Source: a virus. From it: a DNA stretch of 26,326 nt. Under the pieces are notes generated by a model. It ran no database searches and had not been told where the DNA came from. It saw nothing but the letters and a program-made list of their open reading frames with translations. The stretch covers positions 1-26,326 of IMG/VR virus record IMGVR_UViG_3300025769_000711, one strand, 5' to 3'. The translations under genes and the position numbers were made by a program. This document shows, piece by piece, positions 4,217-24,405 of the stretch (the first letter of the stretch is position 1; the number at the start of each line of letters is the position of its first letter).

Positions 4217-4246
4217 TAGGTGTTTATACATATAAAAAAATAATGC

Positions 4247-4254
4247 TATCTTTG
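4247..4254 (+). promoter_or_regulatory. Bacteroidota-type promoter -7 element
   Basis: TATCTTTG matches TAnnTTTG, the -7 box of the Bacteroidota primary sigma factor. It sits in a noncoding gap, 21 bases before the ATG at 4276, and is followed by TAGG as in two other promoters here. The -33 box is weak: only a TGTTTA about 20 bases upstream. Confidence 0.75.
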
Positions 4255-4275
4255 TAGGTATACAAAAAGATAGAA

Positions 4276-6119: not shown

Positions 6120-6137
6120 TTCCTATCTTTGTAGGAA
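6120..6137 (+). promoter_or_regulatory. Bacteroidota-type promoter inside an inverted repeat
   Basis: The -7 box TATCTTTG lies at 6124-6131, directly after the holin stop and 21 bases before the ATG at 6153. It is framed by the inverted repeat TTCCTA (6120-6125) and TAGGAA (6132-6137). A TTG at 6097-6099 could serve as -33 element, with a rather long spacer of 24. Confidence 0.75.
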
Positions 6138-6152
6138 ATAAAATTTAATACA

Positions 6153-6380
6153 ATGAAACTTGATGAAAAAGAATTAGAGACTATCCGTGAGATGCAGGGA
6201 GAGTTTCAGAAGGCAAAACTTGCCTTAGCAGATTTAGAGCTTAACAAGCACCAACTTCTAAAGACTATAGATGTCTTGAAGCAGGACTTCGGTAAGCAAG
6301 AGCAGAAGCTTATAGATAAATATGGAGCCGACTCCGTTATAAATGTTCAGACAGGAGAGGTTACTGAAAACAAAAAATAA
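6153..6380 (+). CDS. Small coiled-coil protein
   Basis: A 75-residue, highly charged, almost wholly helical protein (residues 3-55) with heptad-like Leu/Ile spacing, ending in DKYGADSVINVQTGEVTENKK. I recall similar short proteins in marine Bacteroidota phages near fibre genes but no function. It has its own promoter and is two bases from the fibre gene, so it may be a fibre chaperone or oligomerisation partner (inference). Confidence 0.75.
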   Translation: MKLDEKELETIREMQGEFQKAKLALADLELNKHQLLKTIDVLKQDFGKQEQKLIDKYGADSVINVQTGEVTENKK

Positions 6381-13302: not shown

Positions 13303-14436
13303 ATGGAATTTAAAGTAAAAGAAGTTTCCGGTACAGAGCAGAAATCTCGTGCGGAAGTAGAAGAAGAATTATTAGCAAAAGCAGCGGCAGCTAATGAAGA
13401 AAATGAAACTAACTTGGAACGAGTGGAGACAAGCACTGAGAGTGCCCCCACCCCGAAAGAGCAAGAAAGCATACAGCCGCAAGGCGAAACACAAACTCAA
13501 TCCTCAGAGTTAAAAGAGGAAGACGTTCTTTCATATATTAAGAATAGGTACGATAAGGAGATAAGCTCTGTGGGTCAGTTGTTTGATGAGAAAGAATCAA
13601 ATGAGAAACTACCCGAAGATGTTGCAGCTTACTTTGAGTACAAGAAAAAAACAGGACGTGGAATTGAAGACTATGTTAAATTAAACCAAGACTTCGATTC
13701 TATGGACGAAAACACTTTGCTAAAGAATTATCTTCTTTCTACAGAAGAGGGATTAGATTCTGATGATGTAGAGGTTTTGTTAGACGACTATAGTTATGAT
13801 ATAGATGTTGATGACGAAACAGATATAAAGAAAATAAAGTTAGCAAAGAAAAAAGCGATTGGAAAAGCCAAGAAGTATTTCAATGAGCAGAAAGAGATGT
13901 ATAAACAGCCCCTTGAGTCAAGTACGGTTGAACTCTCTGAAAGTGAGAAGGAAGAGCGCGAGGCATATAACCAATATTTACAAGAAGCGAAGAGCTTTGA
14001 AGAAGAACAAAAACGGAGACGTGATTGGTTCGTGGAAAAGACAGATGAGGTATTCTCAGATTTCAAAGGTTTTGATTTCAAAATAGGAGAAGACCAAGTT
14101 TTGACTTACACACCCACAAATGTGGACGACCTAAAGAAAAGAAACTTAGATACAAGTAACTTTATGAAGAAGTTTGTTGATGAGAACGGTTTGATTAGTG
14201 ACGCTACAGGATTTCATAAAGCTTTAGCTATAGCATCAAATCCCGAAAGGTATGCCAAGTTCTTTTACGAACAAGGTTTAGCTGCAGGAACTGAAGGTGT
14301 TACGAAGAAGATGAAAAACATTAATATGTCTGAACGTAAAGCACCCGAAGTTAGCACCAAGGGAGGAGTGCAGGTTAAGTCTTTAAATCCCGACAGTGGT
14401 CGTGGTCTGAAGATTAGAAAAATAAAAAGATTATAA
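13303..14436 (+). CDS. Capsid scaffolding protein
   Basis: A 377-residue, strongly acidic, helical protein between portal and MCP. The N-terminal third is disordered and rich in Glu, Thr, Gln and Pro (STESAPTPKEQESIQPQGET). Acidic helices follow (EGLDSDDVEVLLDDYSYDIDVDDETD), then a long charged coiled coil at about residues 210-245. The C-terminus is basic (NPDSGRGLKIRKIKRL), as in scaffolds whose basic tail contacts the coat protein. No protease motif is seen. It would guide procapsid assembly and then leave. The call is based on position, composition and length. Confidence 0.78.
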   Translation: MEFKVKEVSGTEQKSRAEVEEELLAKAAAANEENETNLERVETSTESAPTPKEQESIQPQGETQTQSSELKEEDVLSYIKNRYDKEISSVGQLFDEKESNEKLPEDVAAYFEYKKKTGRGIEDYVKLNQDFDSMDENTLLKNYLLSTEEGLDSDDVEVLLDDYSYDIDVDDETDIKKIKLAKKKAIGKAKKYFNEQKEMYKQPLESSTVELSESEKEEREAYNQYLQEAKSFEEEQKRRRDWFVEKTDEVFSDFKGFDFKIGEDQVLTYTPTNVDDLKKRNLDTSNFMKKFVDENGLISDATGFHKALAIASNPERYAKFFYEQGLAAGTEGVTKKMKNINMSERKAPEVSTKGGVQVKSLNPDSGRGLKIRKIKRL

Positions 14437-14450
14437 ACAACAAACAAAGT

Positions 14451-14470
14451 CCTCTGAGTAAAGTAAGAGG
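14451..14470 (+). promoter_or_regulatory. Short stem-loop in the MCP leader
   Basis: CCTCT (14451-14455) and AGAGG (14466-14470) form a 5-bp stem with a 10-base loop, ending 12 bases before the MCP ATG. It is followed by an A-rich tract (CAAAAAGAAAAAATG) rather than T, so it is not a terminator. It could protect the mRNA end or influence MCP translation. Confidence 0.35.
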
Positions 14471-14482
14471 CAAAAAGAAAAA

Positions 14483-15931
14483 ATGGCAGTTAGTGCAACT
14501 CCCGGTTTTGATTTGCAGCCATCGGCACAACAGGTCCCGACAGCTACAAACTACATAACCAATTTTGATTTCTTGAATCAGTATCTTCCGGATACTTACG
14601 AGAAAGAATTTGAACGATATGGAAATCGTACAATTAGTTCATTCCTACGATTAGTTGGAGCAGAGATGCCTTCCAACTCTGACTTAGTGAAATGGGCAGA
14701 ACAAGGAAGACTTCACACAAAGTACACTAAAGTTGGTGTAGCTGCAGGTGGAGCAGGAGACAACAGTGCAACATTCCAAGTGAATGACACAGGTGTTCCT
14801 GCCTTTTCAGCAACAAATGCTATTGCTCTTCGCGTTGGACAAACAATTATGATTGTCGCTAACAACGGTGGTGGAAGCAACAAAGCGGTTGTTACAGGAG
14901 TTACTGTAGCAAACAATCGTTTTACAGCGGCTTTTTACGAAGGAGCAGGTCAAGTTATTGCAGGTACAGGTTTGGCAAACTCTGACTTTACTGTATTCAT
15001 TTACGGTTCTGAATTCAAGAAAGGAACAGAAGGAATGGTTGGTTCTTTAGAAGCTGACGATATCTTCTTTGAAAACTCTCCAATTATCTTAAAAGATAAG
15101 TATGCAGTATCGGGTTCTGATATGGCACAGATTGGATGGGTTGAAGTAACAACTGAGAATGGTGCTACAGGATACCTTTGGTATTTGAAGTCTGAGCACG
15201 AAACTCGTTTACGTTTCGATGACTACTTGGAAACTTCAATGATTGAAGCGGTTCCTGCAGCGGCAGAAGCAGTTCCCGGTGCTCCCGGAAACAACGCATC
15301 TGTTGAAGGTTACAAAGGTTCTGAGGGTATTTTCTACTCTGTAAAGAATCGTGGTAACGTATGGTCCGGTGGTAACCCTGTTGCCCTCGCGGATTTTGAT
15401 GCAGTTATCTCTCGTCTTGACAAGCAAGGAGCTATCGAGGAGAATGTTATCTTCCTTGACAGAGACTTTGGTTTCGATATCGACGATATGTTAGCAGCTC
15501 AGAACTCTTACGGAGCAGGTGGTACATCTTACGGATTGTTTGACAATGACGAGGAGATGGCACTTAACCTTGGATTCACAGGATTCCGAAGAGGATATGA
15601 CTTCTACAAGTCTGATTGGAAATACTTAAACGACCCAACAATGCGCGGAGGTTTACCTACAGGTGCAGGTTCGGGAGCGGTAAACGGATTGATGGTTCCT
15701 GCAGGTTCCACATCTGTGTATGACCAAATCCTTGGTAAGAACGCTAAGCGTCCATTCCTACACGTTCGTTACCGAGCGTCAGAAACTGAAGACCGAAGAT
15801 ACAAGTCTTGGGTAACAGGTTCTGCAGGTGGTGCAGCAACATCTTCTTTAGATGCAATGGAAGTTCACTTCCTTTCTGAAAGATGTGTATGTACTATGGG
15901 TGCAAACAACTTCTTCATTTTCGAAGACTAA
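14483..15931 (+). CDS. Major capsid protein (HK97 fold, crAss-like type)
   Basis: A 482-residue protein after the scaffold and before a strong terminator. It contains segments I recognise from the major capsid family of crAss-like and related marine phages: YGSEFKKGTEGMVGSLE, SPIILKDKYAVSGSDMAQIGW, YLKSEHETRLRFDDYLE, LDKQGAIEENVIFLDR, IDDMLAAQNSYGAGGTSYG, FRRGYDFYKSDWKYLNDP and RPFLHVRYRASETEDRRYKSW. Residues of about 97-175 are an additional beta-rich Gly/Asn/Val segment (ALRVGQTIMIVANNGG...AVVTGVTVANNRF) that may be an insertion on the capsid surface. The leader has a stem-loop and a purine-rich A tract. It would build the icosahedral shell. Confidence 0.93.
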   Translation: MAVSATPGFDLQPSAQQVPTATNYITNFDFLNQYLPDTYEKEFERYGNRTISSFLRLVGAEMPSNSDLVKWAEQGRLHTKYTKVGVAAGGAGDNSATFQVNDTGVPAFSATNAIALRVGQTIMIVANNGGGSNKAVVTGVTVANNRFTAAFYEGAGQVIAGTGLANSDFTVFIYGSEFKKGTEGMVGSLEADDIFFENSPIILKDKYAVSGSDMAQIGWVEVTTENGATGYLWYLKSEHETRLRFDDYLETSMIEAVPAAAEAVPGAPGNNASVEGYKGSEGIFYSVKNRGNVWSGGNPVALADFDAVISRLDKQGAIEENVIFLDRDFGFDIDDMLAAQNSYGAGGTSYGLFDNDEEMALNLGFTGFRRGYDFYKSDWKYLNDPTMRGGLPTGAGSGAVNGLMVPAGSTSVYDQILGKNAKRPFLHVRYRASETEDRRYKSWVTGSAGGAATSSLDAMEVHFLSERCVCTMGANNFFIFED

Positions 15932-15947
15932 GAGTTGATACAATACG

Positions 15948-15979
15948 AAGGAGTGTCCTCAGCGACACTCCTTTTTTTT
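15948..15979 (+). terminator. Intrinsic terminator after the MCP gene; hairpin repeat copy 2
   Basis: GGAGTGTC (15950-15957), loop CTCAGC, GACACTCC (15964-15971), extended by AA/TT, then eight T (15972-15979). It lies 17 bases after the MCP stop. The core is repeated in terL (8774) and at 23771. There is no TAnnTTTG between it and the next gene, so that gene probably depends on read-through. Confidence 0.92.
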
Positions 15980-16001
15980 AATTTAATATAAATTCAATCA
16001 A

Positions 16002-16751
16002 ATGAAAAAAAAACAGAAATACGTTGACAAAACGTACAGACTAACGAGGGATGCAGCACCTCTATCTTTTATGCTGCCTGTCAGAAACTCAAGAAGAAGT
16101 CCGCTTCTTTATTTTGATGAAGACAAAGGAATTAACAGAGCACTACGTTACGCAGTAAACCAAAAAACTCCCTTCGAGGATGAGCAAGATGGTAATGCTA
16201 TTGTAGAGCCTGTAGTTTTTGAAGACGGATTTTTAAACGTCTCAAGAACAAACCAAGTTCTGCAGGAGTTCTTACACTACCACCCGCTTAATGGTAAACG
16301 ATTTGAGGAGGTTAATGCTGAGAAAGATGCTGCAGAAGAAGTAGAGTGGTTAAATGCTGAGGTAGATGCTTTGGTAGAAGCACGTAAGCTTACAATAGAC
16401 CAACTTGAAACGCTTGGACGAGTTGCTATTGGAGCCAACGCAGTGAATATGACAACCGCCGAACTCCGTAGAGATATGCTTATCTATGCTAAGCAAGACC
16501 CCGACAGTTTTTTAAAGATGGTGTCAGACCCTATGGTTAAGCTTCAGTCTAATGTTCAAAAGTTATTTGACGAAAGATTGTTAGCTTTTAGAAACAATCA
16601 GAAGGAAGTTTACTTTAACCTACCGGGTAACAAGAAAAGAATGATGAACATACCATTTGGTGAAGACCCTATGTATGTAGTAACTTCTTATATGCAATCT
16701 GACGAGGGAGTAGAGATACTTGAGTATCTTGAAAAGCAGTTGGAAGAATAA
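16002..16751 (+). CDS. Conserved structural-region protein of unknown function
   Basis: A 249-residue protein. The N-terminus is basic with LSFMLPVRNSRRSPLLYFDE. Residues of about 60-100 contain EPVVFEDGFLNVSRTNQVLQEFLHYHPLNGKRFEEV, then an acidic helix (AEEVEWLNAEVDALVEARKL). The second half is helical, with MTTAELRRDMLIYAKQDPDSFLKMV and DPMVKLQSNVQKLFDERLL, ending RMMNIPFGEDPMYVVTSYMQSDEGVEILEYLE. I recall this family after the MCP gene in many marine phages, without a proven role. The position suggests a minor capsid or head-completion protein. There is no enzyme motif. An A8 run near the start codon is a possible slippage site but nothing shows it is used. Confidence 0.75.
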   Translation: MKKKQKYVDKTYRLTRDAAPLSFMLPVRNSRRSPLLYFDEDKGINRALRYAVNQKTPFEDEQDGNAIVEPVVFEDGFLNVSRTNQVLQEFLHYHPLNGKRFEEVNAEKDAAEEVEWLNAEVDALVEARKLTIDQLETLGRVAIGANAVNMTTAELRRDMLIYAKQDPDSFLKMVSDPMVKLQSNVQKLFDERLLAFRNNQKEVYFNLPGNKKRMMNIPFGEDPMYVVTSYMQSDEGVEILEYLEKQLEE

Positions 16752-16775
16752 TTTTATTTTGCTTGTACTATGAAT

Positions 16776-16805
16776 AAGAGGGCTTTTACGAGTCCTCTTT
16801 TTTTT
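16776..16805 (+). terminator. Intrinsic terminator
   Basis: AAGAGGGCT (16776-16784), a 6-base loop, AGTCCTCTT (16791-16799): a 9-bp stem with one G-T pair, running into a T-tract ending at 16805. It ends the transcript of the 249-residue gene. Confidence 0.9.
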
Positions 16806-16807
16806 CT

Positions 16808-16815
16808 TATCTTTG
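16808..16815 (+). promoter_or_regulatory. Bacteroidota-type promoter -7 element
   Basis: TATCTTTG starts three bases after the terminator T-tract, 30 bases before the ATG at 16846. The -33 region falls inside the terminator hairpin, so terminator and promoter share sequence. Confidence 0.8.
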
Positions 16816-16845
16816 TACTATTATTAACCCATTAATTTTTTTACA

Positions 16846-17124
16846 ATGGAAAAATTTTTAAAAGTTACAAACGCACCTGTTACAGGTCAGCTTATTGCTA
16901 TTAACGGAATCAAAGCGGTTGGTACGGCAAGTGCTACCGCAACTACGGTCACTATTAAGTATTTTGACGGAACTACAACTACAGTGACAACTGCAGCTCA
17001 AGTAGGTCACGATGTGTATAGTGAGATTTTGAACGCTATTGCTACAGCAGTCGCTACATCTTGGCAGAAGGCTTACTATGAAGTGGTTCTTCCTAAAGCA
17101 GTAACAAGTATTGTTAATGCTTAA
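16846..17124 (+). CDS. Small beta-rich virion-like protein (possible capsid decoration)
   Basis: A 92-residue protein: MEKFLKVTNAPVTGQLIAINGIKAV, a Thr/Ala/Val-rich strand region (ATATTVTIKYFDGTTTTVTTAAQVG), a helix (VYSEILNAIATAVATSWQKAYYEVV) and LPKAVTSIV. Small proteins beginning MxKFLxVTNxPV are, as I recall, common between capsid and connector genes in marine and crAss-like phages. The gene has its own promoter and its own terminator, which suggests a separate and probably high dose, as for a decoration or head-fibre protein. The leader is AT-rich (TTTTTTTACAATG). Function is not proven. Confidence 0.7.
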   Translation: MEKFLKVTNAPVTGQLIAINGIKAVGTASATATTVTIKYFDGTTTTVTTAAQVGHDVYSEILNAIATAVATSWQKAYYEVVLPKAVTSIVNA

Positions 17125-17150
17125 TAGAATTAACTCTAAACTATGAAACG

Positions 17151-17180
17151 GAGGGCTTTTAAGGAGCCCTCTTTTTTTTT
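17151..17180 (+). terminator. Intrinsic terminator
   Basis: GAGGGCT (17151-17157), loop TTTAAGG, AGCCCTC (17165-17171), then nine T. It ends the one-gene transcript of the 92-residue protein. Confidence 0.92.
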
Positions 17181-17183
17181 GCT

Positions 17184-17191
17184 TATCTTTG
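17184..17191 (+). promoter_or_regulatory. Bacteroidota-type promoter -7 element
   Basis: TATCTTTG three bases after the T-tract of the previous terminator, 17 bases before the ATG at 17209. It would start the connector-stabilisation transcript. As at 16808, the -33 region overlaps the hairpin. Confidence 0.8.
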
Positions 17192-17208
17192 TGTAAAGAA
17201 GATAACGA

Positions 17209-18159
17209 ATGATAAACTCAGTAAGAAATACGGTTCTATCTATACTGAACAAGAACAACTACGGATACATCTCTCCATCAGACTTTAACCTATTTGCCAA
17301 GCAGGCGCAGATGGATATATTTGAGGATTACTTTTATCAGTATAACTATCAGCTATTAAAAGAGAATGCAAGACAATCGGGTACAGGATATGCCGACATA
17401 AAAAAAGGCTATGAAGAAGTGATTGAGATGTTCTCAGAAACTAAGTACCTTACTCACAGCACCAACAACACATTCTTTTTACCTGCTCAGATATACACAG
17501 GAGATGATTACTATTTGATAAACAAGGTATTGGGATATCAAACCACTGCAGCTACAGGAACTGTTACTACAGTTACAGCAGGACAGCTTGTCGATACAAA
17601 TGTAAACTTTCAATCTTTAGGGGTGCAGGTAGGTGATATTGTTTTTAACTACAGACCTACAGCACCAACTTTTGCTACTGTTACTAACGTTGTCAATGCA
17701 ACAACCTTAGATTTATCTTCGGGTATCTTTGATAATGTTTTAGACTTAGGTGCTTCATATGCAGTGTTTAAGCCTAAACAGAATGAGCTTGAGAAGGTTA
17801 CGCTTAGTAAGATTACAATGCTAAACAATTCAATGCTAACCGCACCAAACAGATTGTTTCCTGCATACTCACAAGAAGGCGGTCTTTTAACCGCGTATCC
17901 ATCTGATTTAACAGAGGGAATACTTTGTCAGTACATTCGATACCCTAAAGACCCCAAGTGGACGTATGTGCAATTAACAAATGGAGAGCCATCGTTTGAT
18001 TCAAGTCAGTCAGACTATCAAGATTTTGAGCTTCCTAATGATGATGAGCCATCTTTGATTATGAAGATACTTCAGTACGCGGGAATGTCTATCAGAGAGA
18101 TTCAAGCTGTACAGTTTGGACAGGCACAGGACCAAGAAGATTCACAAGAAGAAAGATAA
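17209..18159 (+). CDS. Connector/ring-type virion protein
   Basis: A 316-residue protein. The helical N-terminus (MINSVRNTVLSILNKNNYGYISPSDFNLFAKQAQMDIFEDYF) and the IRYPKDPKWTYVQL...FELPNDDEPSLIMKILQYAGMSIRE end resemble conserved proteins that follow MCP genes in crAss-like and marine podoviruses, where they are thought to form the neck or tail rings. Residues of about 112-187 (LVDTNVNFQSLGVQVGDIVF...TVTNVVNATTLDL) look like an inserted beta-barrel, similar to part of the protein at 4276. It is first in a promoter-led unit with the next two genes. The exact ring position cannot be assigned. Confidence 0.75.
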   Translation: MINSVRNTVLSILNKNNYGYISPSDFNLFAKQAQMDIFEDYFYQYNYQLLKENARQSGTGYADIKKGYEEVIEMFSETKYLTHSTNNTFFLPAQIYTGDDYYLINKVLGYQTTAATGTVTTVTAGQLVDTNVNFQSLGVQVGDIVFNYRPTAPTFATVTNVVNATTLDLSSGIFDNVLDLGASYAVFKPKQNELEKVTLSKITMLNNSMLTAPNRLFPAYSQEGGLLTAYPSDLTEGILCQYIRYPKDPKWTYVQLTNGEPSFDSSQSDYQDFELPNDDEPSLIMKILQYAGMSIREIQAVQFGQAQDQEDSQEER

Positions 18160-18162
18160 ACT

Positions 18163-19086
18163 ATGGCATACATAACAGCATATCAATACTATGAAAACGG
18201 AGGTAACAATCCCGAAAATGCAAATTGGGGTTCCTATCAGTACGTAAGTCTGTACGACATTGTAAACAACTTTATGTTGATGTACAGCGGAAATCATAGT
18301 CTAATAAATAACGAGGAGAGATACAAGGTTCTGTTTCACGCTAAACGTGGTATACAAGAGTTGAACTACGATGCGTTCAAGGAGATAAAAATATTAGAGC
18401 TTGACGTTTGTGATAGCCTAAGATTTGTTCTTCCTCCCGACTTTGTTAATTGGGTGAGAATATCTATATATCAGAACGGAGTTCTAAGACCATTGACAGA
18501 AAATATTCAGACGAACTATAGCGATGCTTATTTGCAAGACAATAACTGTAGAATTTTATTTGATGAAGACGGTAACATTTTAAAACCGGAAAACTCTAAC
18601 ATAGACTTTGACAGGATTGTTGGTAGCAAGAGGTCCATATATCTAAATCAGAATAGTGTATATAATAACTATGAGGGTTGGAATATAGATGGTACTTGGT
18701 ACTTTGACTATAGCATTGGTGCAAGGTTTGGATTAAATACAGAGACAGCAAACATAAACCCTACATTTAAGATAGACAAGAAAGGTGGTGTTATAAACTT
18801 CAGTTCTGATATGGCGAACCAACAGTGCATACTTGAATATGTTTCCGACGGTATGGAGAATGGAGATGATTCTTTGGTGAGCGTTAACAAGCTCTTTGAA
18901 GATTATATTTACGCCTACATTGAATACAGTCTTGCAAGTTCTAAGATGGGTATGCAGGAGTATATTATTGCAAGATTAAGAAAGAAGTCTACAGCTTTGT
19001 TAAGAAATGCTAAAATTAGAATGAGTAACATTCACCCCGGAAGATTGTTGATGAATCTTCGAGGTAGAGATAAGTGGATAAAATAA
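18163..19086 (+). CDS. Tail connector/ring protein (gp4-like position)
   Basis: A 307-residue protein just before the stabilisation protein (one-base gap). It begins MAYITAYQYYENGGNNPENANWGSYQYVSLYDIVNNFML and has a helix with a conserved-looking RYKVLFHAKRGIQELNYDAFKEIK. It then has strands VLPPDFVNWVRISIYQNGVLRPL, a QCILEYVSDG strand, and a helical end with YAYIEYSLASSKMGMQEYIIARLRKKSTALLRNAKIR. This helix-strand-helix plan and position are like P22 gp4/T7 gp11-type tail adaptors and the ring protein next to the crAss muzzle protein. Assignment is by context and plan rather than a catalytic motif. Confidence 0.72.
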   Translation: MAYITAYQYYENGGNNPENANWGSYQYVSLYDIVNNFMLMYSGNHSLINNEERYKVLFHAKRGIQELNYDAFKEIKILELDVCDSLRFVLPPDFVNWVRISIYQNGVLRPLTENIQTNYSDAYLQDNNCRILFDEDGNILKPENSNIDFDRIVGSKRSIYLNQNSVYNNYEGWNIDGTWYFDYSIGARFGLNTETANINPTFKIDKKGGVINFSSDMANQQCILEYVSDGMENGDDSLVSVNKLFEDYIYAYIEYSLASSKMGMQEYIIARLRKKSTALLRNAKIRMSNIHPGRLLMNLRGRDKWIK

Positions 19087-19087
19087 T

Positions 19088-22000
19088 ATGGCAAATTTAA
19101 AGAGACATTTTATAGCAGGCAGAATGAACAAGTCTGTGGACGAAAGACTTGTGCCTAACGGTGAGTACATTGATGCAATGAATGTTAGACTTGGTTCTAC
19201 TGAAGCTTCAGAGATAGGCTCAGTTGAGAACTCAAAGGGTAATACTCAAATTAGTTCACTTCAATACAACAACACAGCGTTAAGTCCATCGGCAAAATGT
19301 ATAGGGGCTTACGAAGACGGAGCGAGAGAAACTATATATTGGTTTGTTCACGACCCTGCATTTACAGGTGCAGGTGCAGGAGCTACAGGTAAGCTTGATA
19401 TGATTGTTTCTATGAACGTAAACACAGAAACAATTACATATCACGTAATTAGTGTTAAGAATGGCTCAACCACAAACACTACTTTGAACTTTAATCCTGC
19501 GTATTTAATAAACGGTGTCAATATGGCGGGACAGGACTTGCTTATTTTTACCGACAATATAAATCCTCCAAGGATAATTAATGTTAGAAAAAATTATCAA
19601 GACCCTACAGGGGCTCCTTTGGTAGACCAATTCACTGAAGAAGAAATACTTGTAATAAAAAAACCACCTGTTACAGCACCAATAATAAAGACTAATACCA
19701 TACCGGGGAACGATGACTTCATAGAAGAAAGGTTTCTTTGCTTTGCTTACAGGTACAGGTATGCAGATAATCAATACTCTGCTATATCTCAGTTTAGCAA
19801 ACCTGCATTTGAGCCGGACTTTTTTAATGTAACTATAGCTACATTTTTAAATGAAGGAATGCAGAATGCGGACAACAATGTAATCATAACTATGGATACA
19901 GGAGGTCCATTAGTAGTTGGGTTTGATTTGCTATACAAAGAATCTACAAACTCTGTTGTTCGAGTCGTGCAAAAATTTGACAAGAACACAGATGGTATTT
20001 CTGACAATACTAATTTTATTTATCAATTAAGTGGATATAAAGTTTTTACTGTACTTCCGGATTCTGAAATTTTAAGAACTTATGACAACGTACCTTTATT
20101 AGCCAATACTCAAACGTTAATGGGCAATCGTCTTGTTTATGGTAACTATGTAGAAGGTTATGACTTAAAGGACAAAAACGGAAACAATATTAATCTAAAT
20201 TTTAACACCTCTTTAATAACTGAAGAGGTATCTACGTTAGATATTCCTACAACACTTGGTAATCCGGGTTATTCTGCAGACCCTGCCAATTCACCGTATC
20301 TCGTTCTCAATGCTTTAATGCAGATGAACTTTAATGGCATTGAGCTTACAAGGGGTTCTACAATATCTATAGATTTTACCTTAGACCACGCAGACTTTAC
20401 AAGCAACACTGTTCCCGCTTTAGTTGAGGAACAACAGCCTATTGAGATTACTTGGGAGTATACTCTTATTCAAGATTATCTTACTGATGGAACTTCTACA
20501 GGAGCATACAAACTTGCTACGTCGGCGGATTTTTTAAATTCCCTTGGTACATCACCCCCAACAGGAACAATGCTACCCGTGTACGATGCAACTAATCCTA
20601 CATCTTGTAATGGGTTTACTCTTACGGATGTTATAAACTGTGCTATTCAGAATACCTTAGATGCGGGTACACCTCAAGCAAGAACAAAATATGAATCGGG
20701 GTATGATGATATTCCTGCAAATGGTAACCAAGGTATAGCGTATGTATTAGCATTAGTTCCACCTGCGGTTACATCGGATGTGATAAACATACAGCTTCCT
20801 GCAATGCGAAGGGTAGATGATGTTGTTACTCCAACAGCAAGCACCTATGAATACTTTCAAATAGTTAATCCACTAAATAGATTTAGTTCTGTTAAAAGCC
20901 CATTGAGCTTACACAGTAACAGAAACTACGAGGTAGGTATAATATATATGGATGAGTATAACAGAGCTACAACAGCCTTGGTGAGTACCAACAACTCAGT
21001 GCAGGTTCCTTGTTCTAATTCAATATTTAGAAACTTTATTCAGCTTAATATACCCCCTTCTCAAATTGCTCCTTCTTTTGCAACAAGGTACAAGTTATGT
21101 ATTAAGCCGGACAAAAAAGGATACGATACTATTTATTCTAATTTTTATGTTCAAGACACAAGCACAGGAGATACCTATATTTTATTGGAAGGTCAGAACA
21201 CACGGAAGGTAGAAGAGGGTGATACTTTAAATGTAAAGAGAGATTCTGTTGGTCCGATTACTTCGTGCACCGAAGTAGTAGTATTAGAGAAAAAACCACA
21301 ACAACAAAACTTTTTAGACCCTGCTCCAACTGATGATGCAGGTGACCCAATTCCTTTGCCTTCGGGTACATATATCAAGTTAGCTACAAATAGCATTAGC
21401 TTAGACCTACCCGACAATGCGTTAGTTAATCCCGGACAAGAAACCGTATTTAACAATTTCAATAATAAGGACCAACCGCTTATGGCTTATGGGGAGCTTG
21501 GTGATTTTACAATTCCGGAAAGAGCAAGAATAGTTTTAAAGTTTAAGTTTGAAAGACTTGGTACAGGAGATGGAAATAATAACTGTGAAAGAAGAATATA
21601 TGAGTACGAGCGTACTTTCTTTGCGGATGCTGATTATGACGATATAGTTTTGTGGTTTGAAGGGCAAGGAATACAGGGTACTTTAGCAGATGGTGAAACA
21701 ACCACAGGAAATGGCAGCTCTATTACTAATACTTATCTTGCACCCACATCCACAACAGCTAACGATTATCAGATGCCAACTGATTCTTTTACAAACTATT
21801 ACAGGTGGTATAAAAACGGAACTGACATCAGATTTATTATGACGGGTCCACCGAGATGCGGCAATGGTAACAGCGAAAAGAAAAGGTCATCCATTACTTG
21901 TGAGTGGCAGATATTCCGTTCAGAAAATCTTCTCGTGTTTGAAACACAACCGGAAGATGCAACTCCCGACCTTTGGTATGAAGGGTCAGAATCTTATGCG

Positions 22001-23571: not shown

Positions 23572-24384
23572 ATGGCAGGAACAACAGGAAACTACACATT
23601 AACGTACAGCGAATCTTCAAAAGGATTCCCGTCTTTCTATTCGTATTATCCCGATATGATGATAGGTATGAACAACTATCTATACTCGTTCAAAGGAGGA
23701 AACCTTTACAGGCACAACACCAATGAAGAAAGAAACACTTACTATGGTACGTTTACTTCTTCTAAGATGACGAGTGTCTTCAACGACACTCCGTTGGAGA
23801 ATAAAATATTTAAGACTATACACCTTGAGTCTGACTCAGCTTGGACAGGAACGTTTACATCAGACCAACAGACGGGAGGAAATATAGATGCAGATTGGTT
23901 CGTTAAGAAAGAGGGGAATTGGTTTGCTTTTATTAGAGACACAGGATTTACTCCTGCATCTACAGCAGAATATCCATTACGTTCTTTAAATGGTATCAGC
24001 TCTTCTCAGACGGTGAATTCTGTAGTTCCCGCAGCGGTAGAGATAAACTTTAATATCAACACATCTATAGGAAGCATATTGAGCATTGGAGACACGTTGT
24101 ATTTTATTCCTTCGCCCGTTGTTTCGGGGTCAACACCCACTTTATGCGGAGCTGTTACGGAAATAAATATTGACCTTCCTGCAGGACTTAATCAGATTGT
24201 GGTTGATACATCAGCAGGTGCTATACCTCCGGGGCAGACAGATTACTTTTTATTCATAAAGAACCAAGTTGCCGAATCACACGGTGTATTAGGTCACTAT
24301 TGCGAGTTTACTTTAACCAATGATGACACAACAGCTACAGAGTTATTTACCGTAGAGTCTGAGGTAATGAAAAGTTTCCCTTAA
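23572..24384 (+). CDS. Distal partner of the stabilisation protein
   Basis: A 270-residue beta-rich protein five bases after the stabilisation gene. The first third (YSESSKGFPSFYSYYPDMMIGMNNYLYSFKGGNLYRHNTNEERNTYYGTF...VFNDTPLENKIFKTIHLESD) is a segment that, as I recall, forms the C-terminal part of the stabilisation protein in some crAss-like phages, so here it is probably a split-off module. The rest is Ser/Thr-rich strands ending LGHYCEFTLTNDDTTATELFTVESEVMKSFP. No enzymatic motif. It probably assembles with the preceding protein at the tail tip. Confidence 0.75.
   Translation: MAGTTGNYTLTYSESSKGFPSFYSYYPDMMIGMNNYLYSFKGGNLYRHNTNEERNTYYGTFTSSKMTSVFNDTPLENKIFKTIHLESDSAWTGTFTSDQQTGGNIDADWFVKKEGNWFAFIRDTGFTPASTAEYPLRSLNGISSSQTVNSVVPAAVEINFNINTSIGSILSIGDTLYFIPSPVVSGSTPTLCGAVTEINIDLPAGLNQIVVDTSAGAIPPGQTDYFLFIKNQVAESHGVLGHYCEFTLTNDDTTATELFTVESEVMKSFP
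23772..23792 (+). repeat. Hairpin repeat copy 3 (inside the 270-residue gene)
   Basis: GAGTGTC (23772-23778), loop TTCAAC, GACACTCC (23785-23792). It has the same stem as copies at 8774 and 15948 and differs by one base in the loop from copy 1. It reads in a different frame (Ser-Val-Phe-Asn-Asp-Thr) from the terL copy (Glu-Cys-Pro-Gln-Arg-His). No T-tract. Confidence 0.8.
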
Positions 24385-24390
24385 AATTCC

Positions 24391-24398
24391 TATCTTTG
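24391..24398 (+). promoter_or_regulatory. Promoter -7 element almost touching a start codon
   Basis: TATCTTTG in the 21-base gap before the ATG at 24406, framed by TTCCTA and TAGGAG as in the 6124 promoter. Only seven bases separate the box from the ATG, so the transcript would be leaderless or nearly so. Confidence 0.72.
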
Positions 24399-24405
24399 TA
24401 GGAGT

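Follow-up and report, generated by a model that had tools for sequence, protein, structure and literature searches.

Predicted terminator-promoter blocks bound a small, variably present gene among the virion genes of presumed flavobacterial phages

We analysed a 26,326-base linear virus record (the window, meaning the whole stretch of DNA at that length) and found that a small gene, S, sits between two repeated terminator-promoter blocks in the virion-gene region. Comparison with relatives leads us to propose, at a probability of roughly 0.8, that S is an accessory promoter-gene-terminator cassette that occupies one slot between its neighbours U and D and is exchanged through the blocks. The features of the locus are as follows.

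16002..16751, + strand: gene U, an ORF of 249 aa, upstream neighbour of the slot.
16768..16816, + strand: block 1, a terminator-like hairpin, T-tract and −7 promoter box on the S side, direct repeat of block 2; sequence CTATGAATAAGAGGGCTTTTACGAGTCCTCTTTTTTTTCTTATCTTTGT.
16776..16799, + strand: stem-loop of block 1, intrinsic-terminator-like (pattern scan and fold).
16808..16815, + strand: predicted sigma-A −7 box of the S promoter, TATCTTTG (pattern scan with the TAnnTTTG consensus).
16846..17124, + strand: gene S, an ORF of 92 aa, accessory gene of the slot.
17141..17192, + strand: block 2, a terminator-like hairpin, T-tract and −7 promoter box on the D side; sequence CTATGAAACGGAGGGCTTTTAAGGAGCCCTCTTTTTTTTTGCTTATCTTTGT.
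17150..17172, + strand: stem-loop of block 2, intrinsic-terminator-like (pattern scan and fold).
17184..17191, + strand: predicted sigma-A −7 box of the D promoter, TATCTTTG (pattern scan with the TAnnTTTG consensus).
17209..18159, + strand: gene D, 316 aa, downstream neighbour of the slot, a virion structural protein.

The terminase, portal and virion genes of the window match proteins of phages of Flavobacteriia, and the named phages closest to it are MW202828 (Manatee Spring), Maribacter phage Panino, Elemovirus and Cellulophaga phages; these are marine phages, presumed to infect flavobacteria. The local gene order is a PHROG 13704 virion-protein gene (14483-15931), followed by U, S and D. 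Judging from its position, the product of the PHROG 13704 gene is probably the major capsid protein. U, which relatives keep upstream of the slot, matches phrog_34748, a family of unknown function (E = 6.5e-28), while D matches phrog_14543, a head and packaging family (E = 1.2e-34). For U, D, the PHROG 13704 protein and the gene that follows D, sequence searches turned up no solved homologue. In addition, a 156-aa gene at 4276-4746 matches part of D (E = 2e-8), apparently through an insert domain that is also found in long variants of S.

Both blocks have the same layout, namely a GC-rich hairpin, 8-9 T and then TATCTTTG, which conforms to TAnnTTTG, the sigma-A −7 box mapped in Flavobacterium psychrophilum (PMC9723704). 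A repeat search of the window recovers them as direct repeats, at the coordinates and around the 92-codon ORF that a preliminary description had given and that the sequence and the ORF list bear out. Specifically, the two intergenic spacers align locally with a score of 63, compared with a mean of 17 and a maximum of 29 for 2000 dinucleotide shuffles. The hairpin part alone scores 30, which lies at the edge of the shuffled range (matched by 1 of 2000 shuffles), indicating that the likeness of the blocks exceeds the T-tract and promoter, in agreement with the preliminary claim that it goes beyond generic terminator and promoter motifs. The predicted folds have energies of −13.4 kcal/mol for block 1 and −15.8 kcal/mol for block 2, and no shuffle folds as well. 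The closing arm, which had been described as shared, differs between the blocks (GTCCTC in block 1 and GCCCTC in block 2), the differing pair being retained as a G-U wobble in block 1. By sequence, S thus has the promoter-gene-terminator layout ascribed to it, with a −7 box before it and a hairpin and T-tract after it. The stem-loop of block 2 would serve as a terminator for S, or for U where S is absent.

TAnnTTTG alone occurs at 36 sites in the window compared with 31 expected, so the composite, and not the box, is the signal, and generic promoter enrichment was rejected. A sigma-70 scan of the window is uninformative for this type of host, and there is no Rfam match anywhere in the window. 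Another strong terminator-like hairpin (15947-15974, −16.8 kcal/mol) follows the PHROG 13704 gene and, unlike blocks 1 and 2, has no TATCTTTG box behind it. A short perfect inverted repeat, TTCCTA-TCTTTG-TAGGA(A), encloses a −7 box at 6121-6138 and at 24386-24402, preceding the genes at 6153 and 24406, respectively; a weaker form is present at 4244-4258.

IMG/VR holds 79 relatives of S and at least 598 of D, and our comparison covers the 79 and 80 of the latter. S lies between U and D in 89 loci. Among the 70 D-anchored loci with a full slot, 20 carry S and 50 do not; the U-D spacers of the S-less loci measure 63-157 nt, and each of the 50 contains a hairpin-T-promoter block before D. A gene that is absent together with a single remaining block is what the preliminary description had proposed to look for in related phages. 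S is single copy, and S-less contigs have no S elsewhere.

Single-block S-less relatives include L081, L082, L083, L085, L098 and L105. L081 and L082 are the closest, with a D protein 100% identical to that of the window, no S and one block. BLASTN aligns L082 with the window in two pieces, 13318-16816 (89.6% identity) and 17140-19794 (93.2%), that overlap by 54 nt of L082, corresponding to its single block; these breakpoints were obtained independently of the coordinates in the preliminary description. The single block of L081 and L082 is chimeric, with its left flank from block 1 (TTTTATTTTGCTTGTACTATGA) and its right half from block 2 (AAGGAGCCCTC-T9-GC), and the change-over from one to the other falls between the hairpin foot and GGGCTTTTA. 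L084 and L085 provide a second, independent pair with and without S, in which the switch falls within GAAAGAGGGCTTTTAAG. The switch point is at the hairpin foot in L095/L092 and at the T-tract in L126/L127, and L108 holds a scar-like double T-tract (hairpin-T9-GCCTC-T9).

In nine further comparisons of loci with and without S, the D-side homology picks up again at the downstream hairpin or near it. Homology on the U side ends about 2 nt or less from the −7 box in L084, L095 and L126, in the hairpin in L107, and at the U stop codon in L012, L103, L087, L152 and L139; in four of these last five it stops there because the S promoter follows directly. The left junction of promoter-only loci and of L087 is the U stop codon, outside any block.

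A D-side block is found in essentially every relative. On the S side, 50 of the 89 S-carrying loci have a hairpin, 14 have a promoter without a hairpin, and 25 have neither, the last group being apparently mostly one clade with a degenerate box that overlaps the U stop codon. Since the S-side hairpin is missing in 39 of 89 loci, full insulation of S is not required, and the suggestion of selection on both copies of the block holds for the D side but not for the S-side hairpin, where it is usually the promoter that remains. Near-identical block pairs, as the preliminary description called them, are found in the window, L084 and L087, whereas most S-carrying relatives have two differing hairpins; a rule that S always has two like blocks was rejected on this ground, and repeat-mediated loss is not equally open to all. 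Hairpin likeness is 0.14 within a genome and 0.03 between genomes, a comparison that is confounded by ancestry.

The hairpin had also been said to stay paired despite substitutions. In 70 distinct hairpins, seven stem positions are each paired in 68-70 cases through many pair types, in agreement with that statement, although the count is partly circular, as the search itself demanded pairing; the better test is comparison with shuffles, whose 99th percentile is surpassed in 61 of 62 distinct D-side contexts. The strict composite occurs 0-2 times per long contig and almost only at the U-S-D locus, once before D in S-less genomes and up to twice around S elsewhere; four long records lack it, their signals being looser. 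Among 95 matches listed for T8-N0-4-TATCTTTGTG in IMG/VR, 63 are before D and 8 before S. MW202828.1 (L161) has an additional terminator-promoter composite upstream of U, at 24206-24222, and other genes of the virion module can thus carry one.

Comparison of closely related loci reveals replacement of S between conserved flanks. In particular, L007 and L088 are 99% identical from the U stop codon to the −7 box, 54% identical in S and 100% identical from the hairpin to D, as expected for a replaced S allele. L084 and L087 show the reverse, with a leader 100% identical and an S 97% identical next to a U 3′ end and a D 5′ part at 79%; their upstream capsid region is also about 95% alike, indicating that these genomes are mosaic beyond S. 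Furthermore, the slot of some relatives holds 2-4 genes of the S family, in part of these loci with a terminator-promoter block between copies; these loci surfaced through a search with a second S allele. Arrays of S-like genes are found at L305:2963-5119 and L293:3960-5003, with blocks or promoters between some of the genes, and L305 may by eye hold six (the extra ones at about 2963 and 4765). L078:1262-2470, and likewise L079, has a further gene of about 400 aa after S and before the D-side block.

A U+D tree of 96 loci shows 14 changes between presence and absence of S, of which at least 12 fall on starred (strongly supported) branches. The number is below that of shuffles (mean 31), since close relatives agree in state. 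Both gain and loss of S seem to occur, given the cassette on diverged flanks and the scar in L108. The loss, exchange and duplication by recombination that the preliminary description anticipated thus have their counterparts in relatives with an empty slot, swapped alleles and several S-family genes, and the junctions of the closest pairs lie in the blocks.

These patterns might arise without any role of the blocks in exchange. The blocks could be purely regulatory, with S gained and lost through ordinary homologous exchange between long flanking genes, and the breakpoints lying simply where homology between S-carrying and S-less loci stops. A hairpin, a T-tract and a −7 box are indeed expected for any gene with its own transcript, two hairpins within one genome are usually unlike, and close pairs have 87-99% identity in their U and D flanks, which would make these usable for later spread through the population. 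We nevertheless consider this explanation unlikely. In the window and in L084 the likeness of the blocks extends past the generic parts to loop and foot sequence, their S-less sisters have a single block made of the left half of block 1 and the right half of block 2, and L084 and L087 have a common cassette on diverged neighbouring flanks; whatever the later spread, the founding event of each S allele ended at the −7 box and the hairpin.

Another reading has S as an ancient member of the module that undergoes loss alone, through slippage or annealing between short repeats and with no phage-to-phage transfer. The chimeric single blocks, the scar-like double T-tract of L108 and the occurrence of S in deep-branching clades of the U+D tree all fit such loss. 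Transfer is nevertheless needed where nearly identical flanks enclose strongly divergent S alleles, as in L007/L088 and L012/L103, and where diverged flanks carry near-identical cassettes, as in L084/L087; S arrays in turn need gain or duplication, making loss alone improbable. Finally, the close relatives are all metagenome assemblies, in which short repeats are a known cause of collapse, so collapsed or expanded repeats could give false forms with and without S. That an artefact of this kind accounts for the locus is very improbable: the structures recur in separate contigs (L081 and L082 without S; L015, L016 and L017 with S; L012 and L013 versus L098 and L105) that are not copies of each other, as their flanks have diverged, S alleles differ among contigs, and isolate genomes (Elemovirus) have the S-less form with a terminator and a promoter before D.

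The AlphaFold2 model of S (pLDDT 84.8) has a small confident fold of beta-strands and one helix. Searches of PHROGs, Pfam and PDB by sequence gave nothing convincing on its function, Foldseek with the model matched only unnamed or uncharacterised viral proteins at E ≤ 0.001, and no solved structure in the PDB matched by Foldseek. No relative of S, as a prophage or host copy, was found in 84,980 bacterial and archaeal genomes, and no isolate carrying S was found among 50,697 phage records with four S alleles as queries, S-carrying genomes being metagenome assemblies in all cases. Long S and D variants have in common an insert of the VGDIVHNSTDN type. The location of S, its restriction to phages and the turnover of its alleles suggest that it is most likely a virion or assembly protein that is both variable and dispensable. 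The protein family it defines is confined to phages, has neither a cellular homologue nor one of solved structure, and turns over among the virion genes of marine phages.

In our preferred explanation, exchange of an S cassette through the blocks, the basic unit would be the composite block before D, whose hairpin and T-tract would end the upstream transcript and whose sigma-A −7 box would start that of D. Where S is present, a second promoter, and usually a second full block, would precede it to give the order U-[T-P]-S-[T-P]-D, in which S would be an insulated unit. Within one genome the blocks form direct repeats of up to about 50 nt, and related genomes have them in the same position, so that they could mediate recombination or annealing. 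Such events could delete S and leave one chimeric block, and by the same route could insert S, swap its allele or build arrays with the neighbouring genes intact. Sister genomes show the products of deletion, insertion, replacement and array formation, and recombination probably used the blocks in producing them, as the junctions suggest. Pfam families RecT, Rad52 and RecA are absent from the long marine contigs, and the ERF family is found only in Panino and Elemovirus.

Sister genomes on either side of an event make the steering of phage mosaicism by regulatory repeats testable at one small locus, and in these phages, which have no relation to the T4 group, promoter-terminator blocks bound the gain, loss and replacement of a gene. 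A bolder idea, which we hold only tentatively and rather doubt, is that the block before D is a dedicated exchange port, one per genome, through which S, as a family of fast-changing small virion proteins, is swapped, stacked or dropped. If true, the port would give the particle a component that can be altered, rather as host range is changed by tail-fibre cassettes, and one terminator-promoter element would serve both expression and recombination outside the T4 group.

Among named phages, Elemovirus, MW202828 and Panino share with the window the order portal, hypothetical gene, PHROG 13704 virion protein, U and D, and Elemovirus and MW202828 also have a hairpin and TATCTTTG before D; they differ from the window in having no match to S. 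In Panino, the slot between U and D (L162:3710-5001) contains five small annotated ORFs unrelated to S.

A moron is a gene inserted, together with a promoter and a terminator of its own, between genes that relatives have side by side; classically it is expressed independently, from the prophage. S resembles a moron, as the preliminary description held, in lying between two genes that are adjacent in relatives (50 loci) and in having its own predicted promoter (−7 box) and terminator (hairpin and T-tract). It differs in that its base composition is like that of its neighbours (GC 40.1% for S, 39.5% for U and 38.3% for D, with 38.6% for the window), and no prophage copy of S was found in the 84,980 genomes. 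The slot also keeps receiving members of a single family, with as many as four genes, which makes S more than a random passenger; the moron-like layout stands, with this departure.

PeSLs are reportedly composite promoter-terminator motifs, or mobile regulatory cassettes, of T4-like phages, and are said to have been described by Arbiol in 2010 and Comeau in 2014. In the published description (PMC4503421), a stem-loop terminator is joined to a promoter, is repeated beside accessory genes and is credited with gene shuffling between related phages. Blocks 1 and 2 likewise unite a terminator stem-loop and a promoter in one composite element. Relative to that description, the promoter here is a flavophage Bacteroidetes −7 box (TAnnTTTG) and not the T4 early promoter of a T4-like myovirus, the terminase, portal and virion genes are of flavophage type, the composite is confined to one virion-region locus with 1-2 copies per genome and not many copies in hyperplastic early regions, and one gene family, S, fills the slot. 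As expected from the exchange role credited to PeSLs, the junctions and allele swaps here, seen as sequence, are bounded by the blocks. The block would work like PeSL elements, yet is no PeSL by promoter type, phage group and copy number, and such a design has so far been known mainly from T4-type phages.
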